64,000 nt of DNA from Bacteroidota bacterium (GTDB lineage Bacteria > Bacteroidota > Bacteroidia > UKL13-3), in contig CANHVU010000004.1 of NCBI GenBank assembly GCA_947464275.1, forward strand, positions 1 to 64,000, read 5' to 3'. Below are positions 6,419 through 43,704 of this stretch, piece after piece. The position numbers and the translations under genes were made by a program. Within the stretch, counting starts at the first letter, position 1; every line of letters begins with the position of its first letter. The notes beneath the pieces were generated by a model, which ran no database searches, was not told the DNA's origin, and saw nothing but the letters and a program-made list of their open reading frames with translations.

Positions 6419-7030
6419 TTATTTTATTAACGACAAACCTTCCAAAGAAGAAGTATCATTTGGTGCTATTAATAAAACTCTGTTAAACAATTGTTTTGCT
6501 TCCTTAGGTTTACTTAATCTATAATTTGTCCACGCTAACATATGTAAACCATCGTAAGAAAATGGATATAAATTAACCAATAATGTAAAACATTTATGCG
6601 CTTTTTCATATAGTTTTCCATTATAATAAATCATACCTAAGGCATATAGAGCAAAGCTATTATTGGGGTCTAATTTTAAAATAGCTTGGTATTGAAATAC
6701 TACTTCATCCCATTCGTTTAAAACTGATAATGGATAAATATAGCCGAACTTTGCTTCAAGCGAAAAAGGCATTAATTCCATGGCTATCTTGTAGTATTGT
6801 TTTGATTCTTTTTGTAAACCAGCACAATAGTTAAGCCAACCTAGTCTAAGATTTATTTCGTAAGATGAGGGACTGTAAACTTCAATCATTTTACTTATTG
6901 CTGATGTGTAATTACTTTTGTTTTCAAATCCTAAACTAGAGGCGAAAGCGGTTTTAACTTTATCATCTTGAGCATTAGCAAAGCCAATAAAAGTTAAAGT
7001 AATAAAAAGTGATAAAATTGTTTTTTTCAT
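6419..7030 (-). CDS. Exported TPR-repeat protein
   Basis: This 203-residue protein has a Sec signal peptide (MKKTILSLFITLTFIGFANA, cleavage probably before QDD), followed by about four tetratricopeptide-like helical pairs. The phrases WLNYCAGLQKESKQYYKIAM, LDPNNSFALYALGMIYY and AWTNYRLSKPKEAKQLF have the usual TPR spacing. It is therefore probably a periplasmic scaffold. Its start lies one base from the stop of the outer-membrane barrel gene, so the two are translated from one message with the urea-transporter fusion. No enzyme motif is visible. Confidence 0.85.
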   Translation of the reverse strand: MKKTILSLFITLTFIGFANAQDDKVKTAFASSLGFENKSNYTSAISKMIEVYSPSSYEINLRLGWLNYCAGLQKESKQYYKIAMELMPFSLEAKFGYIYPLSVLNEWDEVVFQYQAILKLDPNNSFALYALGMIYYNGKLYEKAHKCFTLLVNLYPFSYDGLHMLAWTNYRLSKPKEAKQLFNRVLLIAPNDTSSLEGLSLIK

Positions 7031-7031
7031 A

Positions 7032-7928
7032 TTATAAATTGTATTTGATTCCTAAAAAAATAGAGTTAAAATGATAATCTGTTTTTGATAAATGATCTTG
7101 CTTTCTTTCAAATTGATATACGCCAAACATATATAAATTATTGGCAAATTCGTATCTTATATTAATATTTGTTCTATCATATGATTTATCAGCAGAGTTG
7201 TATATAACAAATCCGTTTTGGTCACTATAATTTACTTGATTAGTATAAAAATAATCAGCACTAATATTAACCTCCTCCGAAATAGCAAAACTTATAGATG
7301 GTTTAAAAAATGTACTAATATTTGAGTTGTTTACAAAATGATATAGACCTAATCCAAAAACCAATTTTTCATTGTTTTTTAAATCATATAATACTTCTCC
7401 TCCTAGTTGTAATTGATCTTGTTTTTCTGATAAATTATTAAGATTGCTGCATGCAATTGAAGGTTTTAAATATAATTTTTTTATGGCTACAGTTGCATGC
7501 ATTAGAACTAAATAATTGTTGTTATTAATTAATTCATTAGAAATGCGAGCTCTACTATTCAAATAAGAACCAGCAAAACCCATTTTAAACTTTTTATTAA
7601 ATTTGTATTCTAAATTAGCATAATAGCCCGCCTGACTCACATTTCCCCAAAAATTATCTTGACTCAAATAATAATAATTATGGAAAAGTGTTAACTTTTT
7701 AGCAAGTTGATGCTGCAAACCAATTAAACCAGCATGTAAATTACCCGTAGTATCCATATTACTACTCCATTTAACCCCTGACTCCACGTAAATTTGATTA
7801 AATAAATTAGTTTTTCCTAACCGCATTATTCCTGCAGGTTTTTTGAAACTATTATTCATTAAATTTACTTCCTTAGCCCAAATTGGATTAAAGCACAAAA
7901 ACATTATTATTATTATAAAACTTCGCAT
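7032..7928 (-). CDS. Outer-membrane beta-barrel protein, YaiO-like suspected
   Basis: This 298-residue protein has a signal peptide (RSFIIIIMFLCFNPIWA). It is followed by repeated amphipathic strands with aromatic ends such as LTLFHNYYYLSQDNFWG, LEYKFNKKFKMGFAGSYL and INIRYEFANNLYMFGVYQF. It ends in the hydrophobic strand SIFLGIKYNL, as outer-membrane barrels do. The fold is inferred from this pattern. The YaiO family is my best guess because that family is often joined to TPR domains, and a TPR gene is next door. The start overlaps the end of the transporter gene by 16 bases, which implies translational coupling. Confidence 0.7.
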   Translation of the reverse strand: MRSFIIIIMFLCFNPIWAKEVNLMNNSFKKPAGIMRLGKTNLFNQIYVESGVKWSSNMDTTGNLHAGLIGLQHQLAKKLTLFHNYYYLSQDNFWGNVSQAGYYANLEYKFNKKFKMGFAGSYLNSRARISNELINNNNYLVLMHATVAIKKLYLKPSIACSNLNNLSEKQDQLQLGGEVLYDLKNNEKLVFGLGLYHFVNNSNISTFFKPSISFAISEEVNISADYFYTNQVNYSDQNGFVIYNSADKSYDRTNINIRYEFANNLYMFGVYQFERKQDHLSKTDYHFNSIFLGIKYNL

Positions 7929-10117
7929 ATTGCTTTAAATTTAACACCATTAATGGTTGATTCAAATTGTTGTATTTTAGCATCTAACAAGGTAATTGTA
8001 CCTGTTAAATGTTTATTAAGCATAAAGGCAGATTTTAAATTAATATTGCTTTGTAAAACAATATTTCTCGTATACATGTAGTCATCAATTGAAAAATATG
8101 TTAACCTGTATTCTGCTTTAAGTATATTTTTAAAAGGTAAAATAAAATCATTCGCAAGCCTATTCATTGGTTTAAAAACATCATATATTGGCAATGAATC
8201 ACTTATAACCATATCCTGATAATAACTAAACAATATTTTATGAGCATTGATATAAAAACTATATAGTAAGCTATTTTTATTCCCTTCAAATGAAGTGAAA
8301 TAAAATTGATGACTATCCATACAAAACCAAGCCGTTGATTTAGTATTGTAACAGTATATATAAGAGTAATTATTAATATCGGTAAATACTTCCCATTTTA
8401 CTAACTCTGATTTTCCGCTTTCGAACTTTAAATCCCAATTCAATTTTTTACCTGGTATTAAGTAAAAGGCACTTTTCAGTAGTGAATTAATTGTGGCATT
8501 AGCTACAATATCGTTCTCTTTCGGAATTCCATTACTGTAATAAACGTATTTATTACTCTCCTTTACTATATAATTACTAAGAGGATATTTTATAGTAGTT
8601 GCGGCTAAAACTGCTGTACTCTGTAGCTGAAAATGAACATGAGGCTCAGGAGAACGACCCGAACTCCCGTTGCTAGCTAAAACCTGACCTTTATAAACAT
8701 AATCGTTTACAGCCACTTTGAAACTTTCCTTTTTAATATGGCTAATTTTACTGTACAGAAATTCTGCATGTTTAATAATGATAGTGTTACCCCAATTTTG
8801 TTGTAAATTAACATCACCTATTAAATTATCATCAATACCATCAATAATATCAACTACATAGCCATCTGCAGGAGCCAAAACTGGTAATGAGTAACAATAA
8901 TAATCTTCTAAATTTGTTCCAGGTAACCTAAAGGTTTTTAATTCATCATCCTTTATAACAAAATCCCAAGCATATTGATATTCTTTTTTATGGGTAATAT
9001 TTCCATTTTGTCCTTGCGAAATAAACCATTCTCCATAAAATGGTAAGCCTATTTTTAAATATACCTCATCGTTAAACCTTGCTTTTTCATTTAGGTATCT
9101 GTACAAATTTTTTTCTGGAGAAAATAATTGAACTTGAGTTAATTTAAGTTTATCAGCCTTTACTCTATTGTATAAAAAATAAAGAACCATAATAACCATT
9201 AAATTAAAAGGTAATGACAAAACAGGCAATCCAAAAGAACCTAAAATAGTAGCTGAAGCTGCAATAATCATTGAAATTATGGGTGCAGCAACGATTACCA
9301 ATAAAAATGAATATGAATTTGATAACAAAAAATACCCACCAATGGCGATGGCAGCCAAAATAAAATTGAAACCTATGTAGGTATAGTTAATTAGGCCAAT
9401 ATTACCTTGAAGTAAAATAAAAAAATAGTATCCACTCAAAAAACCTACTACAGAAAGCATAAATGCAATTCGGGAGAAAATTAATAAGCCAATTACAATT
9501 AAAACACCTGCAACAATATTATATTGAAAAATAATTGCCCCTAATGATTTTAAATAAACATCAATGATTTGAGGTAATTCAATATTATCGTAGAAGTGAT
9601 ATGCATTCACCATATCGCTCCCTCCTAGTTTCATTAGGTCATTATAAATAAAAATACTGCTATCGCTGTCTATTAATGATGTAAAATGTGGAGTAGCCAA
9701 AATTATTAACCAAACAGTAAACAGAAATGGCAAACTTAAAAATGGTAATTTTTTATTAGCTTGAAGTCCAGCAATAACAATGGTTAATACGAAACATAAA
9801 AAACTAGCGAATGCTGAAAATAGTAACAATTGCCAACTTGGTGCATAAGTATAACCTATAAACAAACCAACCAATAAACTATTGAAACCATAATAACCTT
9901 TTTGAATATAATGATGATTATAATTTAAAATATTGGCAAAAAAATTAGTTAAGACAACTGATAACAAGCCAAACAAACCAACATAAATATTAATAAATGA
10001 GGCCAAGATAACCAATGAGGCAAGCCAATAACTATCAGCTAAAAATAGTTGAGAGTAACTGTTTACTAATCCTTGGGTATGTAAATTAAAATAATATGAT
10101 AGCTTGGCTTTATTCAA
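7913..10117 (-). CDS. Urea transporter fused to M23 peptidase
   Basis: This 734-residue fusion has an N-terminal membrane part (about 25-320) that resembles the bacterial urea-transporter family. It has about ten hydrophobic segments and the paired signature LPFLSLPF (124-131) and LPVLSLPF (297-304) of the family's internal repeat. Residues 350-500 form an M23 (LytM-type) zinc endopeptidase domain: candidate ligands His376 and Asp385, His460 in KISHI, and PHVHF (His493, His495). The last 230 residues are unassigned. In M23 the first motif is normally HxxxD; here the spacing is wider. The gene starts with TTG at 10117, since a stop lies two codons upstream. It leads a three-gene unit with the barrel and TPR genes. 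Confidence 0.85.
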   Translation of the reverse strand: MNKAKLSYYFNLHTQGLVNSYSQLFLADSYWLASLVILASFINIYVGLFGLLSVVLTNFFANILNYNHHYIQKGYYGFNSLLVGLFIGYTYAPSWQLLLFSAFASFLCFVLTIVIAGLQANKKLPFLSLPFLFTVWLIILATPHFTSLIDSDSSIFIYNDLMKLGGSDMVNAYHFYDNIELPQIIDVYLKSLGAIIFQYNIVAGVLIVIGLLIFSRIAFMLSVVGFLSGYYFFILLQGNIGLINYTYIGFNFILAAIAIGGYFLLSNSYSFLLVIVAAPIISMIIAASATILGSFGLPVLSLPFNLMVIMVLYFLYNRVKADKLKLTQVQLFSPEKNLYRYLNEKARFNDEVYLKIGLPFYGEWFISQGQNGNITHKKEYQYAWDFVIKDDELKTFRLPGTNLEDYYCYSLPVLAPADGYVVDIIDGIDDNLIGDVNLQQNWGNTIIIKHAEFLYSKISHIKKESFKVAVNDYVYKGQVLASNGSSGRSPEPHVHFQLQSTAVLAATTIKYPLSNYIVKESNKYVYYSNGIPKENDIVANATINSLLKSAFYLIPGKKLNWDLKFESGKSELVKWEVFTDINNYSYIYCYNTKSTAWFCMDSHQFYFTSFEGNKNSLLYSFYINAHKILFSYYQDMVISDSLPIYDVFKPMNRLANDFILPFKNILKAEYRLTYFSIDDYMYTRNIVLQSNINLKSAFMLNKHLTGTITLLDAKIQQFESTINGVKFKAICEVL

Positions 10118-10195: not shown

Positions 10196-10236
10196 AAAAA
10201 AGATGTCGAACTTAATAAAAAAGTTCAACATCTTTT
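10196..10236 (-). terminator. Terminator of the PLP-decarboxylase operon
   Basis: The stem AAAAGATGTCGAACTT pairs with AAGTTCAACATCTTTT with one mismatch and lies 22 bases beyond the stop of the decarboxylase gene on the minus strand. It also separates that operon from the urea-transporter operon. Confidence 0.8.
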
Positions 10237-10257: not shown

Positions 10258-11616
10258 TTACAACTTAAATTCACTTAAATAGCTAGGTGTAACTTCTAAA
10301 CTATTCATGTATTCTAATGTTTCTTTTTTTCTAATTAAATGTGGCTTACCTTCCATATCAATAATCACTACATTTGGTCTCATTGAAATAAACTGCATCC
10401 ACTGAGTCATGTTATATGCACCAACAGTATGTACAACCACATTATCACCTTTTTTCATTGGTGGTAAAGTTACATTTTCTCTAATAACATCAATATTCAT
10501 GCACAAAGGACCATAAATAACAGAATCTTCGGTGTAATGACTAAACTCTTGAGCTGGAGATATTTTATGTTCGTACCAAAATGAGGTAAATAATAAATTT
10601 ACACCAAAGTCCATTATGGTAGCTTTACGTCCATCACTTAGGCGTTTATTAGCTAAAACAGTTCCTAATAAATAACCTGCATCATCAACCAACGATCGAC
10701 CACTTTCTAATATTAATAATGGCAATTCATCTTTACTATAATCAGAATTTAATAATGCTGAACAAATTGCTTCTGCATAATCATCAAAAGTAGGAACAGT
10801 ATCAGCACCCATTAGATATGATCCTTTTAAAGTATTGCGAGATGCAAATCCTCCTCCCATATCAATGTAAGAAATATTTTTTCCAAACTTGGCTTTAATA
10901 TGAAAAGCTAAGTCAGAAAGTTTGGTAGCAGCCACAGCATAAGCACTTGGTGTTAACATAAAAGTACCAATATGTGAATGCAAACCTATTAAATCCATTT
11001 TATCAGTTAAAATAATTTTATTAATGGCATCCCATGCTTGTCCACTTTCATAATTAAATCCAAACCTATCCCACATCGGATAAACACCAGTATCCATGTT
11101 AACCCTAATAGCAACTTTTGGTCGTTTTTTTAATTCTTCAGTTAATTCTATTATTCTATAAAGTTCATCAAGATGGTCAATGTGAATCATTGATTCATTA
11201 TTAATGGCTAGGATTAAATCTTCATCTGTTTTATCAGGACCATTGAATATAATTTTATTTCCAGGAACTCCGTTCAATAATGCTTTATTATACTCAAATC
11301 CAGAAACAACTTCCGACCAACTTCCTTCTTGATGAAACACATTACAAATTGCATTATTATAATGAGTTTTGTAACTCCAAGCAAATTGCACTTTAGGGTA
11401 ACGCGTTGTAAAAGCACGAACCGCATCCTTGTATGTTTTGCGAATTGTTTGCTCACTCATAACAAACAATGGAGAACCAAATTCGGCTATTAAATCTTTA
11501 ACTTTAGCTCCATCAATATTTGTAAATGGAGTATATTCTGTACGAGTACCGTACTTGTTCATTACGCCAGTATTTAACTTTTTAATTACTGGTCTTTCAT
11601 ATCTAATTTTTTCCAT
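10258..11616 (-). CDS. PLP-dependent decarboxylase, fold-type III (DAP/ornithine decarboxylase-like)
   Basis: This is a 452-residue fold-type III enzyme (alanine racemase barrel plus C-terminal sheet). The PLP lysine lies in AWSYKTHYN; the histidine motif HSHIGTF, the glycine-rich phosphate site DMGGGFASR, ESGRSLVDD and the active-site Cys in GPLCMNID follow in order. It should decarboxylate an amino acid or an amino-acid conjugate. A regular lysA lies at 42409, so this is not the main diaminopimelate decarboxylase. I chose the ATG at 11616; an earlier in-frame codon at 11682 would translate repeat DNA. It is last in an operon after the PqqD-like and ATP-grasp genes. Substrate unknown. Confidence 0.88.
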   Translation of the reverse strand: MEKIRYERPVIKKLNTGVMNKYGTRTEYTPFTNIDGAKVKDLIAEFGSPLFVMSEQTIRKTYKDAVRAFTTRYPKVQFAWSYKTHYNNAICNVFHQEGSWSEVVSGFEYNKALLNGVPGNKIIFNGPDKTDEDLILAINNESMIHIDHLDELYRIIELTEELKKRPKVAIRVNMDTGVYPMWDRFGFNYESGQAWDAINKIILTDKMDLIGLHSHIGTFMLTPSAYAVAATKLSDLAFHIKAKFGKNISYIDMGGGFASRNTLKGSYLMGADTVPTFDDYAEAICSALLNSDYSKDELPLLILESGRSLVDDAGYLLGTVLANKRLSDGRKATIMDFGVNLLFTSFWYEHKISPAQEFSHYTEDSVIYGPLCMNIDVIRENVTLPPMKKGDNVVVHTVGAYNMTQWMQFISMRPNVVIIDMEGKPHLIRKKETLEYMNSLEVTPSYLSEFKL

Positions 11617-11634
11617 TGGATTTATATTTTTTAG

Positions 11635-11763
11635 GCCTCTGGCGGCTAGCCTCTGGCAATTTTTGTTTAATTTTTTTTGCAACTAGCTGATGGCAGCTGA
11701 CTATTTTGATTCATAACAATAACATTTTTTCGCTAGGGGCTAACAGCTAGTGGCTAACAGCTA
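11635..11763. repeat. Seven-base-period repeat region
   Basis: The 150-base spacer between the ATP-grasp and decarboxylase genes holds GCCTCTGGC twice, 14 bases apart (11635-11643, 11649-11657), and GGCTAACAGCTA twice, 14 bases apart (11738-11749, 11752-11763). Between them are looser AGCTGA and GGCAGCTGA units. A 14-base step is two 7-base units, the same period as the arrays at 21469 and 33970. Confidence 0.75.
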
Positions 11764-11766
11764 TTT

Positions 11767-12813
11767 TTAAAGTTCCCCTATTGTTGAAATTTGCTCAAAT
11801 TCTTTTAGGTCAACAATCATATCATATGAATACCTAATGAACATTTTACCTATTTCGTAATCTCCAAAAGGTTCAACAGATTTACCTAAAGCTAATTTAA
11901 CCAATGCCTCGGGCTGATTATGGCCACAACCGGCAGCTAAATATACCCATGCTGGAAAACGTGGATTTATTTCAAGTAAATAGTATTTGTTTTCAGCAGT
12001 TTTAATAAACTCTAGCTCCATTCCACCTCTCCACTTTGATGAAGAAATTACATTTTTAGCAATATTTACCAATTCATCATCATCTAATGAAATACCTGCC
12101 CAAGCCTTGCCTTTATCTGTAATAAACAATTTACGCATAGGTACTGCACTAATTGCATTTCCTTTTCCATCGCCCAGTGCAGTAACATTTACTTCACTTC
12201 CAAATACATACTCTTGAATAATAATAGGTAAACCCCATTTAGCGCTCAATTTATTAAAATAATTAGCTACTTGTTCAGGATTGTATGCAATATAAGCCTC
12301 ATAAAACTTTCCCTTAACCACCATTGGGTATGAAAATTCAGTGGCAATGGCACTTATTTCATTGGTACTAAACATCATTTTACTGTAAGGAACACTTACT
12401 CCATGTTTTTGTCCAAATTCATATAAATTGGCTTTATGTCTTTCGTCAAACTGTTCTTGAGTTGGTAAAAACATGCTAATCCCTAGTTCTGTTTTTAACC
12501 TTTGCTCAAGTTTCATAAAATTAGCTAATTCAGCATCAAAATTAGGTATTACCACATCTACATTTTCTTGGTTATTGATATAACTTAATCGTTCCATCAA
12601 TGAATCAACTCCTGCACTTGGTAATGGTATTTGATATGACTTATTAACTAAATCGTGCATGTATAAACCTGGTTCAAGGGTTTCGTAACTTAGCCCAATT
12701 ATATTTACATCAAAATCTTTACTTTCTTTTAAAGCACGAATTACGGGTATTCCTGGTCCAGGACTATCAATATTATTAAGTCCAGATACTGCGACTGTTA
12801 TTTTAGGTTTCAT
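11767..12813 (-). CDS. ATP-grasp ligase
   Basis: This 348-residue protein has an N-terminal Rossmann-like domain (ITVAVSGLNNIDSPGPGIPV), a central ATP-grasp domain and the magnesium/ATP site MELEFIK...YYLLEINPRFPAW. The lysine motif YPMVVKGKF is also present. ATP-grasp enzymes join a carboxylate to an amine or thiol through an acyl-phosphate. The overall layout is like CarB or D-Ala-D-Ala ligase relatives, without a biotin or carbamoyl domain. The gene lies 19 bases downstream of the PqqD-like gene and upstream of the decarboxylase. Its neighbours suggest that it attaches an amino acid to a peptide or carrier; that part is inference. Confidence 0.88.
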   Translation of the reverse strand: MKPKITVAVSGLNNIDSPGPGIPVIRALKESKDFDVNIIGLSYETLEPGLYMHDLVNKSYQIPLPSAGVDSLMERLSYINNQENVDVVIPNFDAELANFMKLEQRLKTELGISMFLPTQEQFDERHKANLYEFGQKHGVSVPYSKMMFSTNEISAIATEFSYPMVVKGKFYEAYIAYNPEQVANYFNKLSAKWGLPIIIQEYVFGSEVNVTALGDGKGNAISAVPMRKLFITDKGKAWAGISLDDDELVNIAKNVISSSKWRGGMELEFIKTAENKYYLLEINPRFPAWVYLAAGCGHNQPEALVKLALGKSVEPFGDYEIGKMFIRYSYDMIVDLKEFEQISTIGEL

Positions 12814-12832
12814 AGTATTTTATAATTTATTA

Positions 12833-13081
12833 CTATTCCCCCTCGTCACCCACTTGATTATTTTGAAGCATCATTACAAAATCGTAATAATCTTTTTCAA
12901 AAGTAGATTCATCAGCATTGTATTTACTTAAAATAGCTTTTCTGATATCATCTTTACCCTTTTCGTCCTTTAGCATTCTTATTATTTCTAATCCAATTGG
13001 ATTAGTGCTAAACGAATCACCTGTAGTTGGATTGAATATAAATCCAGATTCGCTAATGGCTACATTTTTTTTTATTTTCAT
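12833..13081 (-). CDS. PqqD-like small protein (RiPP recognition element fold)
   Basis: This 82-residue protein looks like the PqqD family. It begins KIKKNVAISESGFIFNP, continues TGDSFSTNPIGLEIIRML and ends in helices (DESTFEKDYYDFVMML). PqqD folds bind leader peptides of ribosomally made natural products and present them to modifying enzymes. It leads an operon with an ATP-grasp ligase and a PLP decarboxylase. No radical-SAM enzyme and no obvious precursor peptide are near. The acidic tail ends in GDEGE, so a terminal Gly-Glu is free for modification, as in LysW-type amino-group carriers. The family call is by pattern only. Confidence 0.8.
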   Translation of the reverse strand: MKIKKNVAISESGFIFNPTTGDSFSTNPIGLEIIRMLKDEKGKDDIRKAILSKYNADESTFEKDYYDFVMMLQNNQVGDEGE

Positions 13082-13208: not shown

Positions 13209-15305
13209 TTAATTTTTAATACACTTAAACGTTTGAACGTTTGAACCTGATTCAATTTGGAGAATATATATGCCATTTGACAGTTTTTGTACCTCAGGAA
13301 TTTCAATTAGGTTATCGCCTATAATTAGGTTGGCTTCATAATTTATTACTTTGGAGCCCCAATTATTTAATAACGTAATATTGGCACTAGAACCTGTTTC
13401 TGAAAATATGTTAATGTTTAAAAAATTAGTAAATGGATTTGGACTTACCACTACTTTTTCACTTGTAATTTTAGCAACTTTCTCAACTCTACTATAACTG
13501 AAATTACCATCAAAATCAATTTGTTTGATTCTATAGTATAAAATATTATTTGAATTCATTGAACCAATTTCATCAGTAATGTTATATGATTTGATACTGT
13601 TACTATTACCCGCACCCTTAACTTCACTAATTTTTATCCAATTATTGCCATCGTAACTTTTTTCTACTTCAAATTTATTGTTATTAATTTCACTTGCAGT
13701 TTTCCAATTTATTAGCACATTGGCAGGATTTATAAATTTGGCATTTAACGATAACCATTTTACAGGTAATGAAACTATACCACTATTAAAATAAGTTGTT
13801 GTATTGTAATTAGATATGTTTGAAACTCCATTGTACTCCACTATTGCAAAGTAATAACTGGTTGTATTATTTAAACCTGTAACATCACAAGAGCTGCCAG
13901 TTCCATTATATACTACAAAACAATTATTTCCAAGATTAGAACCACTTCCAAAAACTGAATTGGCAGTATAAGCCACAGTATCAATAGGTAAAGAATTAAC
14001 TGCACTTCCAGCTTTACAAATAACTAATCTTCTTACACCATTACCCGTTTTCCAACTTAAGTTTACTGTATTTGTTCCATTATTTGTATATGAAAAATCA
14101 GTTGATGCGATAGTAGGCTCATTGTGAATTGCACCGCCCCATATACGTTGAGCATATTGAGGACTGTCAATAAATGGATTTCTGTTTCCTTGAATTGCAG
14201 CTATAGCATTGTTTCTCTTTATTTCTTTATCACTAACAGGATCAAGATTATGCCAACTTAATAGTAAGCTTAACTGCCAAGGTTTAAAAACAGGATAGTT
14301 ATTCCCAGCCAATATATCTGTCGCGCCTGCATTTGAGGTCCAAGAAGCAATCAAGTTTTCATACCTAGTAGCCATAAAAAAATAACCTCTTGCTAAGTCA
14401 CCTTTATACTCATCAATTGGCTCAAAAACAACTCCAGTATAGCCAAAATTGTTGGTACTAGTACCTAATTTTCCGCCATAAAGGCTAGTATAAGTTGCAT
14501 TTGTTACATACCCATAGGGGTAGTTATTTCTCATGCCATTTACTTTTCCATCAGAAGCAAATACATGGTTTAATTCTGTTACCATAGGACTTGCTGAATT
14601 AAACCAACTTTGAGGAAATGAATGTTCTCGATTATAACAATTACCTTCTACAGAATATGTACCACATTGATTACTCACCAATGTATATTCATAAGGAGAT
14701 GCTTGGTCAAGTCTTGTACTGTATATGTCCCAAACTTTTCCATTTGGCTGAACATCGGTAGTAGCGTATGCATTCCAAACACCAGGAGTATAACTAACTG
14801 ATGTAGCTCCAACAGAAATTTTATTATAAAGAGCCGTTTTTAAAGCAGCTCCCCTAACATTTCCAATGGTATTAAAATAAGTATTTACTCCTGTAGGAAT
14901 TGTTGTTGCAATGCATGTTCCGCTAACTGAAACACTAACTGAAGCAGAACCAATACTGCTATTTAATATTGCATTTGAAGTACTTGGATAACTTGCTACC
15001 AATGTGGGACTAAAGCGAACAAATATTTTTGTATTAGCGATTGTGCCGGCCAATGGTGTCAGTGTTATTTTATTGCCATACCCATAATTATAATTTAATG
15101 AAACCTCAAAGGCGGCTGAAGATGAGATAACTATTGGTGCTGTTAATGAAGTTCCAGAAACCGAATAATTTAAACTTGATGAACTATTATATGGATATAC
15201 ATTTCCAAATGAAGGAATTGATGTAATGTTGGTTATTATAGAACCAGCTTTTGTAAATTTACTAAATACAACTAAAAAAATGACTAAGAATGTTTTTGCG
15301 CTCAC
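13209..15305 (-). CDS. Secreted endonuclease I with T9SS sorting tail
   Basis: From the GTG at 15305 the product is 698 residues with a clean signal peptide (SAKTFLVIFLVVFSKFTKA). A Bacteroidota beta-sandwich domain follows (about 20-135). Then comes an endonuclease I (EndA/NucM) domain with CYNREHSFPQSWF, ELNHVFASDG and LARGYFFMATRYEN. A fibronectin-like part follows. The C-terminal T9SS type-A sorting domain has SPNPFTNFLNI and ends GIYILQIESG...FKCIKN. It should be exported and digest extracellular DNA. An in-frame TTG at 15338 is possible, but that region holds a near-perfect promoter, so I prefer the later start. A terminator lies upstream at 15372. Confidence 0.93.
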   Translation of the reverse strand: MSAKTFLVIFLVVFSKFTKAGSIITNITSIPSFGNVYPYNSSSSLNYSVSGTSLTAPIVISSSAAFEVSLNYNYGYGNKITLTPLAGTIANTKIFVRFSPTLVASYPSTSNAILNSSIGSASVSVSVSGTCIATTIPTGVNTYFNTIGNVRGAALKTALYNKISVGATSVSYTPGVWNAYATTDVQPNGKVWDIYSTRLDQASPYEYTLVSNQCGTYSVEGNCYNREHSFPQSWFNSASPMVTELNHVFASDGKVNGMRNNYPYGYVTNATYTSLYGGKLGTSTNNFGYTGVVFEPIDEYKGDLARGYFFMATRYENLIASWTSNAGATDILAGNNYPVFKPWQLSLLLSWHNLDPVSDKEIKRNNAIAAIQGNRNPFIDSPQYAQRIWGGAIHNEPTIASTDFSYTNNGTNTVNLSWKTGNGVRRLVICKAGSAVNSLPIDTVAYTANSVFGSGSNLGNNCFVVYNGTGSSCDVTGLNNTTSYYFAIVEYNGVSNISNYNTTTYFNSGIVSLPVKWLSLNAKFINPANVLINWKTASEINNNKFEVEKSYDGNNWIKISEVKGAGNSNSIKSYNITDEIGSMNSNNILYYRIKQIDFDGNFSYSRVEKVAKITSEKVVVSPNPFTNFLNINIFSETGSSANITLLNNWGSKVINYEANLIIGDNLIEIPEVQKLSNGIYILQIESGSNVQTFKCIKN

Positions 15306-15309
15306 TCTG

Positions 15310-15338
15310 CAAATATATTGAAAATACGTAGTTGACAA
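15310..15338 (-). promoter_or_regulatory. Promoter of the endonuclease gene
   Basis: On the minus strand TTG (15338-15336), an 18-base spacer and TATATTTG (15317-15310) match the Bacteroidota consensus exactly. The GTG start at 15305 follows within a few bases, so the transcript would have almost no leader. Confidence 0.5.
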
Positions 15339-42408: not shown

Positions 42409-43626
42409 TTACCAATTCATGGCAACCTCATTTTGTATAATATCTGCCATTGTTTCTCGTTTTCTTATTAAATGAGCTTGGTTATTGTAAATCAAAACTT
42501 CGGCTGGTCTAAACCTAGCGTTATAGTTACTACTCATGGTTATTCCATATGCGCCAGCATTTAAAAAACACAAAATATCGCCTTCTGATACTTCATTTAA
42601 TTTCCTATCCCAAGCAAATGTGTCAGTTTCGCAAATATAACCAACCACCGTGTAAATTCTTTCTTTGCCTTCGGGGTTACTTAAGTTTACAATATGATGA
42701 TATGAATCGTAAAGCATTGGCCTTATTAAATGGTTCAAACCACTGTTTACGCCAACAAAAACAGTGGCGGTAGTTTGCTTAATTACATTTGCTTTAACCA
42801 AAAAGTAACCGCTTTCGCTCACTAAAAATTTTCCTGGCTCGAACCAAAGTTCCAAATCTTTGCCATATTCTTTGCAAAATTCGGTAAAACGATTGCTTAA
42901 GCTTTTTCCTAATTCTTCTATATCGGTAGTAATGTCGTTTGGTTTATAAGCCACTTTAAAACCACTACCAAAATCAATAAAATCTAATTCAGTAAAATCT
43001 TTAGCCGCATCAAATAAAATTTCGGCACCTTGTAAAAACACACCAGCGTCCAAAATGTCACTTCCGGTATGCATGTGCAAACCATTTACGTGAATATTAT
43101 GCGATTTTACCACGCGCAATACATGGCGTAATTGGTAAACAGAAATTCCAAATTTTGAATCAATATGTCCTGTTGAAATTTTACTATTTCCGCCAGCTAA
43201 AATATGTGGATTTAAACGAATACAACATGGAACTGAATGCCCATATTTACTTCCAAATTGCTCTAAAATAGAGATATTATCAATATTGATATGAACGCCT
43301 AATTCTACTGCTTGTTCTATTTCTTCAAAACCAACACAATTAGGAGTAAAAATAATTTCATTAGGTAAAAAACCTGCGTTTAAACCCAAATGTACTTCGT
43401 TAATTGATACCGTATCTAAACCACTGCCTTGTTGTTTTAATAATTGTAAAATGGCCGAATTATTTAAAGCCTTACATGCGTACTTTATCTTTATATTTAA
43501 TGGTTTAAATGCGTTAACTAACTTGTTAAACTGGTTAATAATAGTTTCTGCGTGATACACGTAAACAGGTGCATCATAAGTTTGAGCAATCTGTAATAAT
43601 TGTTCGTTTAGTTCTTGATTAATCAT
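42409..43626 (-). CDS. lysA: Diaminopimelate decarboxylase
   Basis: This 405-residue fold-type III PLP enzyme makes L-lysine from meso-diaminopimelate. The PLP lysine lies in KYACKALNN, the histidine motif is HMHTGSDI and the phosphate site FIDFGSGFKV. EPGKFLVSESG and the Cys motif YICETDTFAWDR follow, then the C-terminal NYNARFRPAEVL, all as in LysA. The ATG at 43626 is used; an earlier in-frame start at 43677 would lie in a terminator. A second, divergent fold-type III decarboxylase is at 10258. Confidence 0.95.
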   Translation of the reverse strand: MINQELNEQLLQIAQTYDAPVYVYHAETIINQFNKLVNAFKPLNIKIKYACKALNNSAILQLLKQQGSGLDTVSINEVHLGLNAGFLPNEIIFTPNCVGFEEIEQAVELGVHINIDNISILEQFGSKYGHSVPCCIRLNPHILAGGNSKISTGHIDSKFGISVYQLRHVLRVVKSHNIHVNGLHMHTGSDILDAGVFLQGAEILFDAAKDFTELDFIDFGSGFKVAYKPNDITTDIEELGKSLSNRFTEFCKEYGKDLELWFEPGKFLVSESGYFLVKANVIKQTTATVFVGVNSGLNHLIRPMLYDSYHHIVNLSNPEGKERIYTVVGYICETDTFAWDRKLNEVSEGDILCFLNAGAYGITMSSNYNARFRPAEVLIYNNQAHLIRKRETMADIIQNEVAMNW

Positions 43627-43667
43627 TAAAATTTGTTGGATAAAGTTCGAGGCTGCAATATGCAACA

Positions 43668-43704
43668 AAAAAGGCAATTTACAATTGAGTAAACTGCCTT
43701 TTAA
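43668..43704 (-). terminator. Terminator between the 43747 gene and lysA
   Basis: AAAAGGCAATTTAC pairs with GTAAACTGCCTTTT with one mismatch, 43 bases beyond the upstream gene's stop on the minus strand. Confidence 0.83.

Follow-up and report, generated by a model that had tools for sequence, protein, structure and literature searches.

What do the neighbouring genes for a PqqD-like protein, an ATP-grasp ligase and a pyridoxal-phosphate (PLP) decarboxylase do together in a bacterium of the phylum Bacteroidota? These genes lie on the minus strand at positions 10258 to 13081 of a stretch of 64,000 nucleotides (contig CANHVU010000004.1 of assembly GCA_947464275.1, positions 1 to 64,000), and we call this whole stretch the window. 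An earlier reading of the letters alone (the sequence-only reading) had regarded the three genes as the complete unit, in which an amino acid is attached to a peptide or carrier and decarboxylated. In the present analysis the three genes proved to be half of a unit of six consecutive minus-strand genes, which encode the PqqD-like protein, the ATP-grasp ligase, the PLP decarboxylase, a fusion of a urea-transporter (UT) fold with an M23 peptidase (UT-M23), a predicted outer-membrane barrel and a TPR protein. We think that this unit may be a pathway that makes a small amino-acid-derived molecule by carrier-bound assembly and exports it, and we assign this reading a probability of about 0.37. The features of the locus are as follows.

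12833 to 13081, minus strand: PqqD-like protein with a stand-alone RRE-type (leader-binding) fold, 82 amino acids, assigned by homology (Pfam PF05402).
11767 to 12813, minus strand: ATP-grasp carboxylate-amine ligase of the carbamoyl-phosphate-synthase-like group, 348 amino acids (PF15632, PF02655, PF02786).
10258 to 11616, minus strand: PLP decarboxylase of the alanine-racemase fold, FslC-like, 452 amino acids from ATG (PF02784, PF00278).
10198 to 10236, minus strand: hairpin with a 16-bp stem and a U-rich 3' side, a possible intrinsic terminator between the decarboxylase gene and the channel gene.
7913 to 10117, minus strand: UT-fold channel (about residues 1-346), M23 zinc peptidase (about residues 351-530) and a C-terminal part, 734 amino acids.
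7032 to 7928, minus strand: predicted outer-membrane beta-barrel, 298 amino acids in the window, from alignment with the model of the L036 orthologue.
6419 to 7030, minus strand: secreted TPR protein, 203 amino acids (PF07719, 6.3e-17).

All three open reading frames (ORFs) of the sequence-only reading were present, and their Pfam matches agree with the families that it had named. Two checks had been set beforehand, namely the synteny of the three genes in other genomes and the fit of the small protein to the PqqD profile. The order was kept in all 34 positive genomes, and the small protein gave 38.6 bits with PF05402 (E 1.4e-9) against a cut-off of 23.4. No radical-SAM gene had been noticed beside the operon, and indeed none was seen in Pfam scans of those neighbours tested. 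The extent of three genes was too small, since the ORFs at 7913-10117, 7032-7928 and 6419-7030 belong to the unit in most relatives. The statement that no transporter lies beside the operon was wrong, because a protein with a transporter fold and a predicted outer-membrane channel come next on the same strand. The decarboxylase ORF had been listed as 10258-11682 of the minus strand, beginning with TTG; its homologues are about 452 residues long, and we therefore think that it probably starts at the ATG at 11616.

We compared 60 neighbourhoods, which consist of the window, 13 loci from a species scan, 20 from relatives and 26 taken elsewhere in the phylum. The species scan covered 84,980 species and yielded 19 loci, of which six were left out as 87-99% identical; the 19 were titled Bacteroidetes, Bacteroidales, Flammeovirgaceae, Chitinophaga, Ignavibacteria or Balneolaceae, and such a scan picks up close relatives only and says nothing on other phyla. 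All 60 loci were picked for having the ligase and several come from one genus, so that counts among them are not independent. The PqqD gene was found in 59 by a six-frame search (the contig of the exception, L062, begins inside the ligase), UT-M23 in 58 (the remaining two are contig ends) and the TPR gene in 54, three of the six loci lacking it being at contig ends (L048, L063, L067). The barrel profile exceeded 100 bits in 38 loci, and in 18 more a shorter protein from two other clusters was taken as a barrel by eye and from weak profile matches; no barrel was found in L101 and L116, and the contigs of L048 and L063 end too early. The median gap was -4 bp between PqqD and ligase (n=54), 18 bp between ligase and decarboxylase (n=59) and 10 bp between decarboxylase and UT-M23 (n=58).

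Each of the first four genes was also sought separately in one set of 395 Bacteroidota genomes, which includes that of the window. Presence was set at E 1e-60 for the ligase, E 1e-75 for the decarboxylase, more than 330 bits for UT-M23 and at least 50 bits for PqqD. Per genome only the best candidates were scored (up to five for the ligase, two for UT-M23, 14 for PqqD and four for the decarboxylase), and a very diverged copy could escape this scoring. The four genes were found in the identical 34 genomes, belonging to 27 genera, and among the best candidates scored none of the four reached its presence level in the other 361. The next UT-M23 match below the 34, among the same candidates, gave 147 bits and was a peptidase without the channel. 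Weaker PqqD matches, of 30-40 bits, occurred in ten other genomes, and two of the 34 had a second copy in this range. Seven of the 34 positive genomes were not among the fetched neighbourhoods.

The order of the four genes was identical in 34/34 genomes, and all gaps were below 400 bp in 30/34, the exceptions being G062, G297, G309 and G178. The UT and M23 parts of G062 are encoded in two separate frames. In G309 an FG-GAP gene intervenes between PqqD and ligase, which lie 1.9 kb apart, and the fusion stops at 532 amino acids. Contig C1 of G178 carries the operon near both ends with identical ligase, PqqD and decarboxylase scores, which probably reflects an assembly overlap of a circular chromosome.

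None of the Pfam, NCBIfam and PADLOC models that we met names the six-gene unit, and no account of the operon or of the UT-M23 fusion was found in the open-access literature (titles and openings of abstracts; subscription journals lay outside this scope). None of the six proteins matched a PADLOC defence-system model at 0.001. Spread of the ligase by plasmids was considered and rejected: 72,556 plasmid records gave one match at 1e-20, 28% identical, on a Streptomyces plasmid, and among the 15 features in its incomplete table none was named decarboxylase, transporter or PqqD.

What, then, does each protein tell about the task? The PqqD-like profile matched, among solved structures, the lasso-peptide B1 proteins TbiB1 (5v1u, E 2.7e-11, the best match) and TfuB1 (4e-8), and matched a PqqD structure weakly (0.075). 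Unlike lasso-peptide systems, the six genes include no lasso cyclase or B2 protease family. Across 59 sequences Gly13, Phe16, Gly21 and Asn27 were invariant and position 23 was Ser or Thr in all, while no Lys or Cys column reached at least 70% and the C-terminus was unconserved. Because conserved Cys or Lys columns and a conserved C-terminus are missing, the protein looks like a leader binder rather than a covalent carrier. Amino-group carriers of the LysW type have a conserved C-terminal Glu. The PqqD-like protein of the window ends in GE, which had suggested a Glu acceptor; this candidate was ruled out since the tail varies in length and residue, and a LysW-type C-terminal attachment site appears unlikely.

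The ligase matched its three Pfam families above their cut-offs and the PDB entries 1a9x and 2pn1, and its identity was 52-78% in 21 aligned relatives. An excerpt of PMC4431377 names BtrJ-like and carbamoyl-phosphate-synthase ATP-grasp enzymes as one clade. Sequence alone is insufficient to tell the two substrates of the ligase.

The decarboxylase gave E values of 2.1e-29 with PF02784 and 1e-12 with PF00278. K83, H215, E304, R307, C372, D376 and Y401 were found in 58/58 decarboxylases (L041, split in two frames, and L063, a contig end, are omitted from this count); that is, the Schiff-base Lys, the catalytic Cys and the cofactor residues of PLP decarboxylases of the alanine-racemase fold are kept in all. 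Placement within the fold, which rests on profile scores and printed alignments, is nearest to FslC. The best PDB entry by profile was the N-citrylornithine decarboxylase 7kh2 (268 bits), the closest solved relative, and the next was a LysA (199 bits). With the NCBIfam models, both of which matched 22/22 members, the window protein scored 228 bits for FslC (NF041039) against a cut-off of 500, and 219 bits for lysA (TIGR01048) against a cut-off of 297.9. The motifs W-x-R-F-G and C-M-[NQ]-x-D occurred in 58/58 and both also in FslC, with which an NGP motif is shared as well. An Arg of LysA, which we take to be the residue that binds the far end of diaminopimelate, was replaced by Thr or Ser in 58/58. 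H357 and R387 are the citrate contacts in a model of FigC, according to an excerpt of PMC7857480, and at these positions 22/22 members carried Ile and Gln. A further difference from the FslC/FigC enzymes of rhizoferrin synthesis is that the six genes showed no NIS synthetase. These scores and alignments support the view that the enzyme is neither a LysA nor a citrylornithine decarboxylase.

FigC groups with SbnH, AcsE, MccE and BtrK; the amino acids that these enzymes decarboxylate are bound to citrate, to a microcin intermediate or to a carrier (excerpt of PMC7857480). Since these relatives take conjugates and the citrate contacts are replaced, the likeliest substrate is a conjugate of an amino acid with a partner that is not citrate, and the neighbouring ligase would make that conjugate. 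The sequence-only reading had argued that the enzyme is free for another task because the genome has a separate lysA. This agrees with our result, in that the gene at 42409-43677 scored 381.6 bits with TIGR01048, and a third decarboxylase with the alanine-racemase fold lies on another contig of the same genome. Its proposal of an attached and then decarboxylated amino acid fits FslC/FigC, which acts on N-acylated ornithine; the peptide or carrier in that proposal was not found in the search within 3 kb given below.

The UT-M23 protein matched PF03253 (3.7e-55, 187.6 bits) and PF01551 (1.4e-12), and both families were found in 20/20 members. In a model of the 734 residues (pLDDT 89.2), whose fold assignments cover residues up to about 530, residues 2-346 matched urea transporters with Z 37.7 and a root mean square deviation of 2.7 over 313 residues aligned to 9j22; thus the UT fold is complete. 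Residues 351-530 matched LytM-type M23 domains with Z about 14, the best neighbours being LytM, DipM, EnvC and similar proteins. The predicted metal-binding and catalytic set H376, D385, H460, H493 and H495 was found in 58/58, with the spacing H-x8-D where H-x3-D is usual for M23.

The side of the membrane on which the peptidase lies is important for the reading. Topology and pore residues were counted in 55 fusions, omitting L038, L101 and L114 (proteins below 600 amino acids) as well as L048 and L063. Lys plus Arg per loop residue was 0.119 on the N-terminal side and 0.031 on the other side, where the limits of the loops were drawn manually on the model, and the direction was the same in 55/55 fusions and in 4/4 stand-alone transporters of the phylum. 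Both termini of human urea transporters are cytoplasmic, and the UT fold puts both ends on one side. Because of this charge distribution, the common side of the two ends and the lack of an evident membrane helix after the UT fold in the model, the M23 domain should be cytoplasmic.

The pore appears to be altered. The Gln, Glu and Thr positions of the pore are presumably the urea binders. The Glu was present in 4/4 stand-alone transporters and in 0/55 fusions, where the position was Ala in 37 and Leu in eight, and otherwise Phe, Ser, Gly, Ile, Tyr or Met, while the matching Gln of the other half was kept in 45/55. The first Thr position was Thr in two fusions and Ser in 50, and the second was Thr in seven, Ser in 30 and Val in 14. 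Urease alpha was convincing in one of the 34 positive genomes (199 bits), with five more giving only 23-25 bits. Since the pore Glu is lost in 55/55 and urease is rare, a role in urea nutrition is unlikely, and UT-M23 differs from the urea transporters (UT/SLC14) in this respect as well as in its C-terminal peptidase; we regard it as not a plain urea importer. Uptake of urea for nitrogen with unrelated neighbours, which the certain UT fold might suggest, is nearly refuted by these same counts and by the strict gene linkage.

As for the envelope genes, the model of the L036 orthologue (pLDDT 87.7) shows TPR repeats and, after them, a barrel with about 14 strands, which gives Z about 20 to FadL-family channels, CymA and OmpG. 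The window protein aligns with it and is shorter, with no Pfam or TPR match, and TPR models matched the N-terminus in 12/20 aligned members. These models support an outer-membrane barrel as the predicted product of the fifth gene. By a simple hydrophobicity rule a signal-like N-terminus was found in 38/38 barrel proteins and 54/56 TPR proteins.

We infer from these features the following pathway. In the cytoplasm, the PqqD-like protein would present a carrier with a carboxylate, such as a peptide, to the ATP-grasp enzyme, and this enzyme would join an amino acid to the carrier by an amide bond. The FslC-like decarboxylase would then strip the free carboxylate from the bound amino acid. The M23 peptidase on the cytoplasmic face of the UT-fold channel may cut the product, presumably an amine, off the carrier and pass it to the channel. 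The product would thus cross the inner membrane outward, and the TPR protein and the outer-membrane barrel would let it out.

Pearlin is the nearest working precedent for carrier-bound logic. In the pearlin pathways (tgl, tmo), a carrier peptide bears the growing amino acid at its C-terminus; they comprise an RRE protein, amide-forming loading, a tailoring enzyme, a metalloprotease in the membrane, for which removal of the modified residue has been shown, and a transporter (excerpt of PMC9303977). The six genes offer a likeness at each of these points, and for the RRE protein and the membrane-bound metalloprotease it is a likeness in kind, by homology. The loading enzyme here is an ATP-grasp ligase and not a tRNA-dependent PEARL (lantibiotic-dehydratase-like), no other ligase family being among the six genes; tailoring would be PLP decarboxylation; the protease is an M23 domain fused to a UT-fold channel; and no carrier gene was found within 3 kb of the operon. 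The BtrI/BtrJ/BtrK system of butirosin is similar in that a PLP enzyme of the alanine-racemase fold decarboxylates a carrier-bound amino acid (excerpt of PMC7857480) and in the clade shared by BtrJ-like enzymes and the ligase group (excerpt of PMC4431377). It differs in that no acyl carrier protein family is among the six genes (a carrier elsewhere was not sought), and the decarboxylase is nearer to FslC (189 bits) than to BtrK (92 bits). The operon resembles the logic of both systems, and its gene content does not place it in either.

Carrier-bound assembly with release and export is already known in kind. A bolder form of our reading would make the system a new class of carrier-peptide assembly, with release by the protease and export by the channel united in one polypeptide. 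An ATP-grasp ligase guided by the RRE protein would, together with the FslC-like decarboxylase, form an amine on a carrier inside the cell, and a cytoplasmic M23 domain would cleave it directly into a re-tuned UT pore with its own outer-membrane exit. We consider this form rather unlikely.

Several results weigh against the carrier-bound pathway. The co-occurrence of the genes speaks for a shared task and not for which task. Among 693 short ORFs of 18-77 codons within 3 kb in the 60 loci, blastp-short gave no conserved family, and this comparison is blind to a fast-changing or distant gene; the sole cross-lineage pair was antisense to PqqD. The sequence-only reading had likewise seen no precursor beside the genes. 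The lack of a conserved attachment site in the PqqD-like protein, described above, counts in the same direction. The LysA score of the decarboxylase is just 9 bits under its FslC score, and the large clade of FigC also includes LysA-type and D-ornithine decarboxylases, whose substrates are free amino acids (excerpt of PMC7857480). Because of these enzymes we placed the carrier-bound reading slightly lower, and a reading with no carrier slightly higher.

Other objections concern UT-M23. The topology call rests on charge, on hand-set loop limits and on the inside termini of urea transporters, and two of the 55 fusions have a 19-residue stretch above 1.6 (Kyte-Doolittle) after residue 351. M23 peptidases normally lie outside the cytoplasm, and a stand-alone M23 relative starts like a secreted protein. 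This relative (L134:3462-4421, contig C47 of G000, a genome also with UT-M23) has no channel, and its domain scored 146 bits with the UT-M23 profile. Urea-transporter channels carry very small neutral solutes, with which an amine product is hard to reconcile.

A further objection comes from the region after the decarboxylase. There the hairpin at 10236-10198 of the minus strand has a folding energy of -20.6 kcal/mol (z -6.35; 0/200 shuffles equal), and the gap to UT-M23 is 140 bp in the window against the median of 10 bp in 58 loci. Because of this hairpin, the two halves of the operon may be transcribed apart in the lineage of the window. The sequence-only reading had given the three genes one terminator; a consensus terminator scan of the window did not list the hairpin. 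To call it a terminator is a possible reading of the strong fold and the U-rich 3' side.

The main rival is a system without any carrier, which we regard as only slightly less likely than the carrier-bound pathway. Here the ligase and the decarboxylase would use soluble substrates, and their product would be a small amide or a diamine conjugate in free form, like a metallophore or an osmolyte; the PqqD-like protein would be only a partner of the ligase, UT and barrel would export the product, and M23 would trim or regulate. The siderophore enzymes FslC, SbnH and AcsE have citryl amino acids as substrates for decarboxylation (excerpt of PMC7857480), and no precursor was found within 3 kb. The absence of an NIS synthetase among the six genes and the loss of the citrate contacts argue against this possibility. 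The strict keeping of a stand-alone RRE-type protein and an intact peptidase would, moreover, be wasteful without a peptide.

Genes upstream of the operon also bear on this possibility, since they give a hint of stress from metals or in the envelope. In 7/60 loci an upstream cassette (15-68 bp, in one 261 bp) encodes an ECF sigma factor, a periplasmic-type protein and a small protein without family assignment; the periplasmic-type protein exceeded the Metal_resist or LTXXQ cut-off in the three cassettes scanned, and the sigma factor its own in one. In 6/60 loci an AraC regulator lies 40-151 bp upstream, and the two scanned gave HMA matches below the cut-off (0.0018 and 0.066). The HMA motif usually has two Cys; the HMA part of the AraC regulator keeps one, which counts against the carrier-free reading.

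The genes might instead serve the cell envelope, with a periplasmic M23 domain that cuts peptidoglycan and cytoplasmic enzymes whose product, an amine or a modified amino acid, goes into the wall or onto a secreted protein. Most M23 domains hydrolyse the cell wall, the best structural neighbours here (LytM, DipM, EnvC-like) agree with this, and barrel and TPR genes are envelope genes. In addition, a secreted protein lies 9-110 bp upstream in 7/60 loci, with a type IX tail in the one of seven scanned. We think this explanation improbable, given that the positive-inside distribution places the C-terminus inside in 55/55 and that the model has no evident transmembrane helix after the UT fold (a hydrophobic stretch occurs in the two sequences of the 55 mentioned above).

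Still less probable, in our view, is a regulated solute uptake in which the M23-fold domain is an appendage of the channel, as IIA is in LacS. LacS is similar in kind, being a transporter followed by a cytoplasmic domain from the same superfamily at its C-terminus, and weak biotin/lipoyl matches were seen in 7/20 UT-M23 members. Against this reading, all five M23 residues are kept in 58/58, and the three biosynthetic genes were not found without UT-M23 in the 395 genomes, among the best candidates scored.

The carrier-bound pathway remains the reading that we prefer. If it is true, amide-carrier biosynthesis would extend beyond tRNA-dependent PEARL enzymes, and UT-M23, with its M23 peptidase in the cytoplasm, would be, to our knowledge, the first UT-fold protein to export the product of a biosynthetic pathway. 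The gene set has sharp limits and is deeply conserved in a major phylum of bacteria, and whether or not the details hold, its linkage in 34/34 genomes assigns the ATP-grasp enzyme, the decarboxylase and the transporter to a shared pathway. Automatic annotation would probably label them carbamoyl-phosphate-synthase-like, diaminopimelate decarboxylase and urea transporter.

Some minor observations were made around the operon. The next gene upstream in the window (13209-15338) encodes an endonuclease I that carries a type IX secretion tail, and in no relative outside the window was it part of the same cluster. The secreted proteins upstream of PqqD in seven loci belong to one family (e.g. L105:6417-7262 and L114:5926-7911), and the FG-GAP protein between PqqD and ligase in G309 is longer; the upstream secreted or FG-GAP protein may be a seventh member of the unit or its target. 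The spacer between the ligase and the decarboxylase in the window (11620-11770) contains short imperfect repeats, seen by eye (TAGCTG..GGCAGCTA), and two terminator-like matches on the plus strand.

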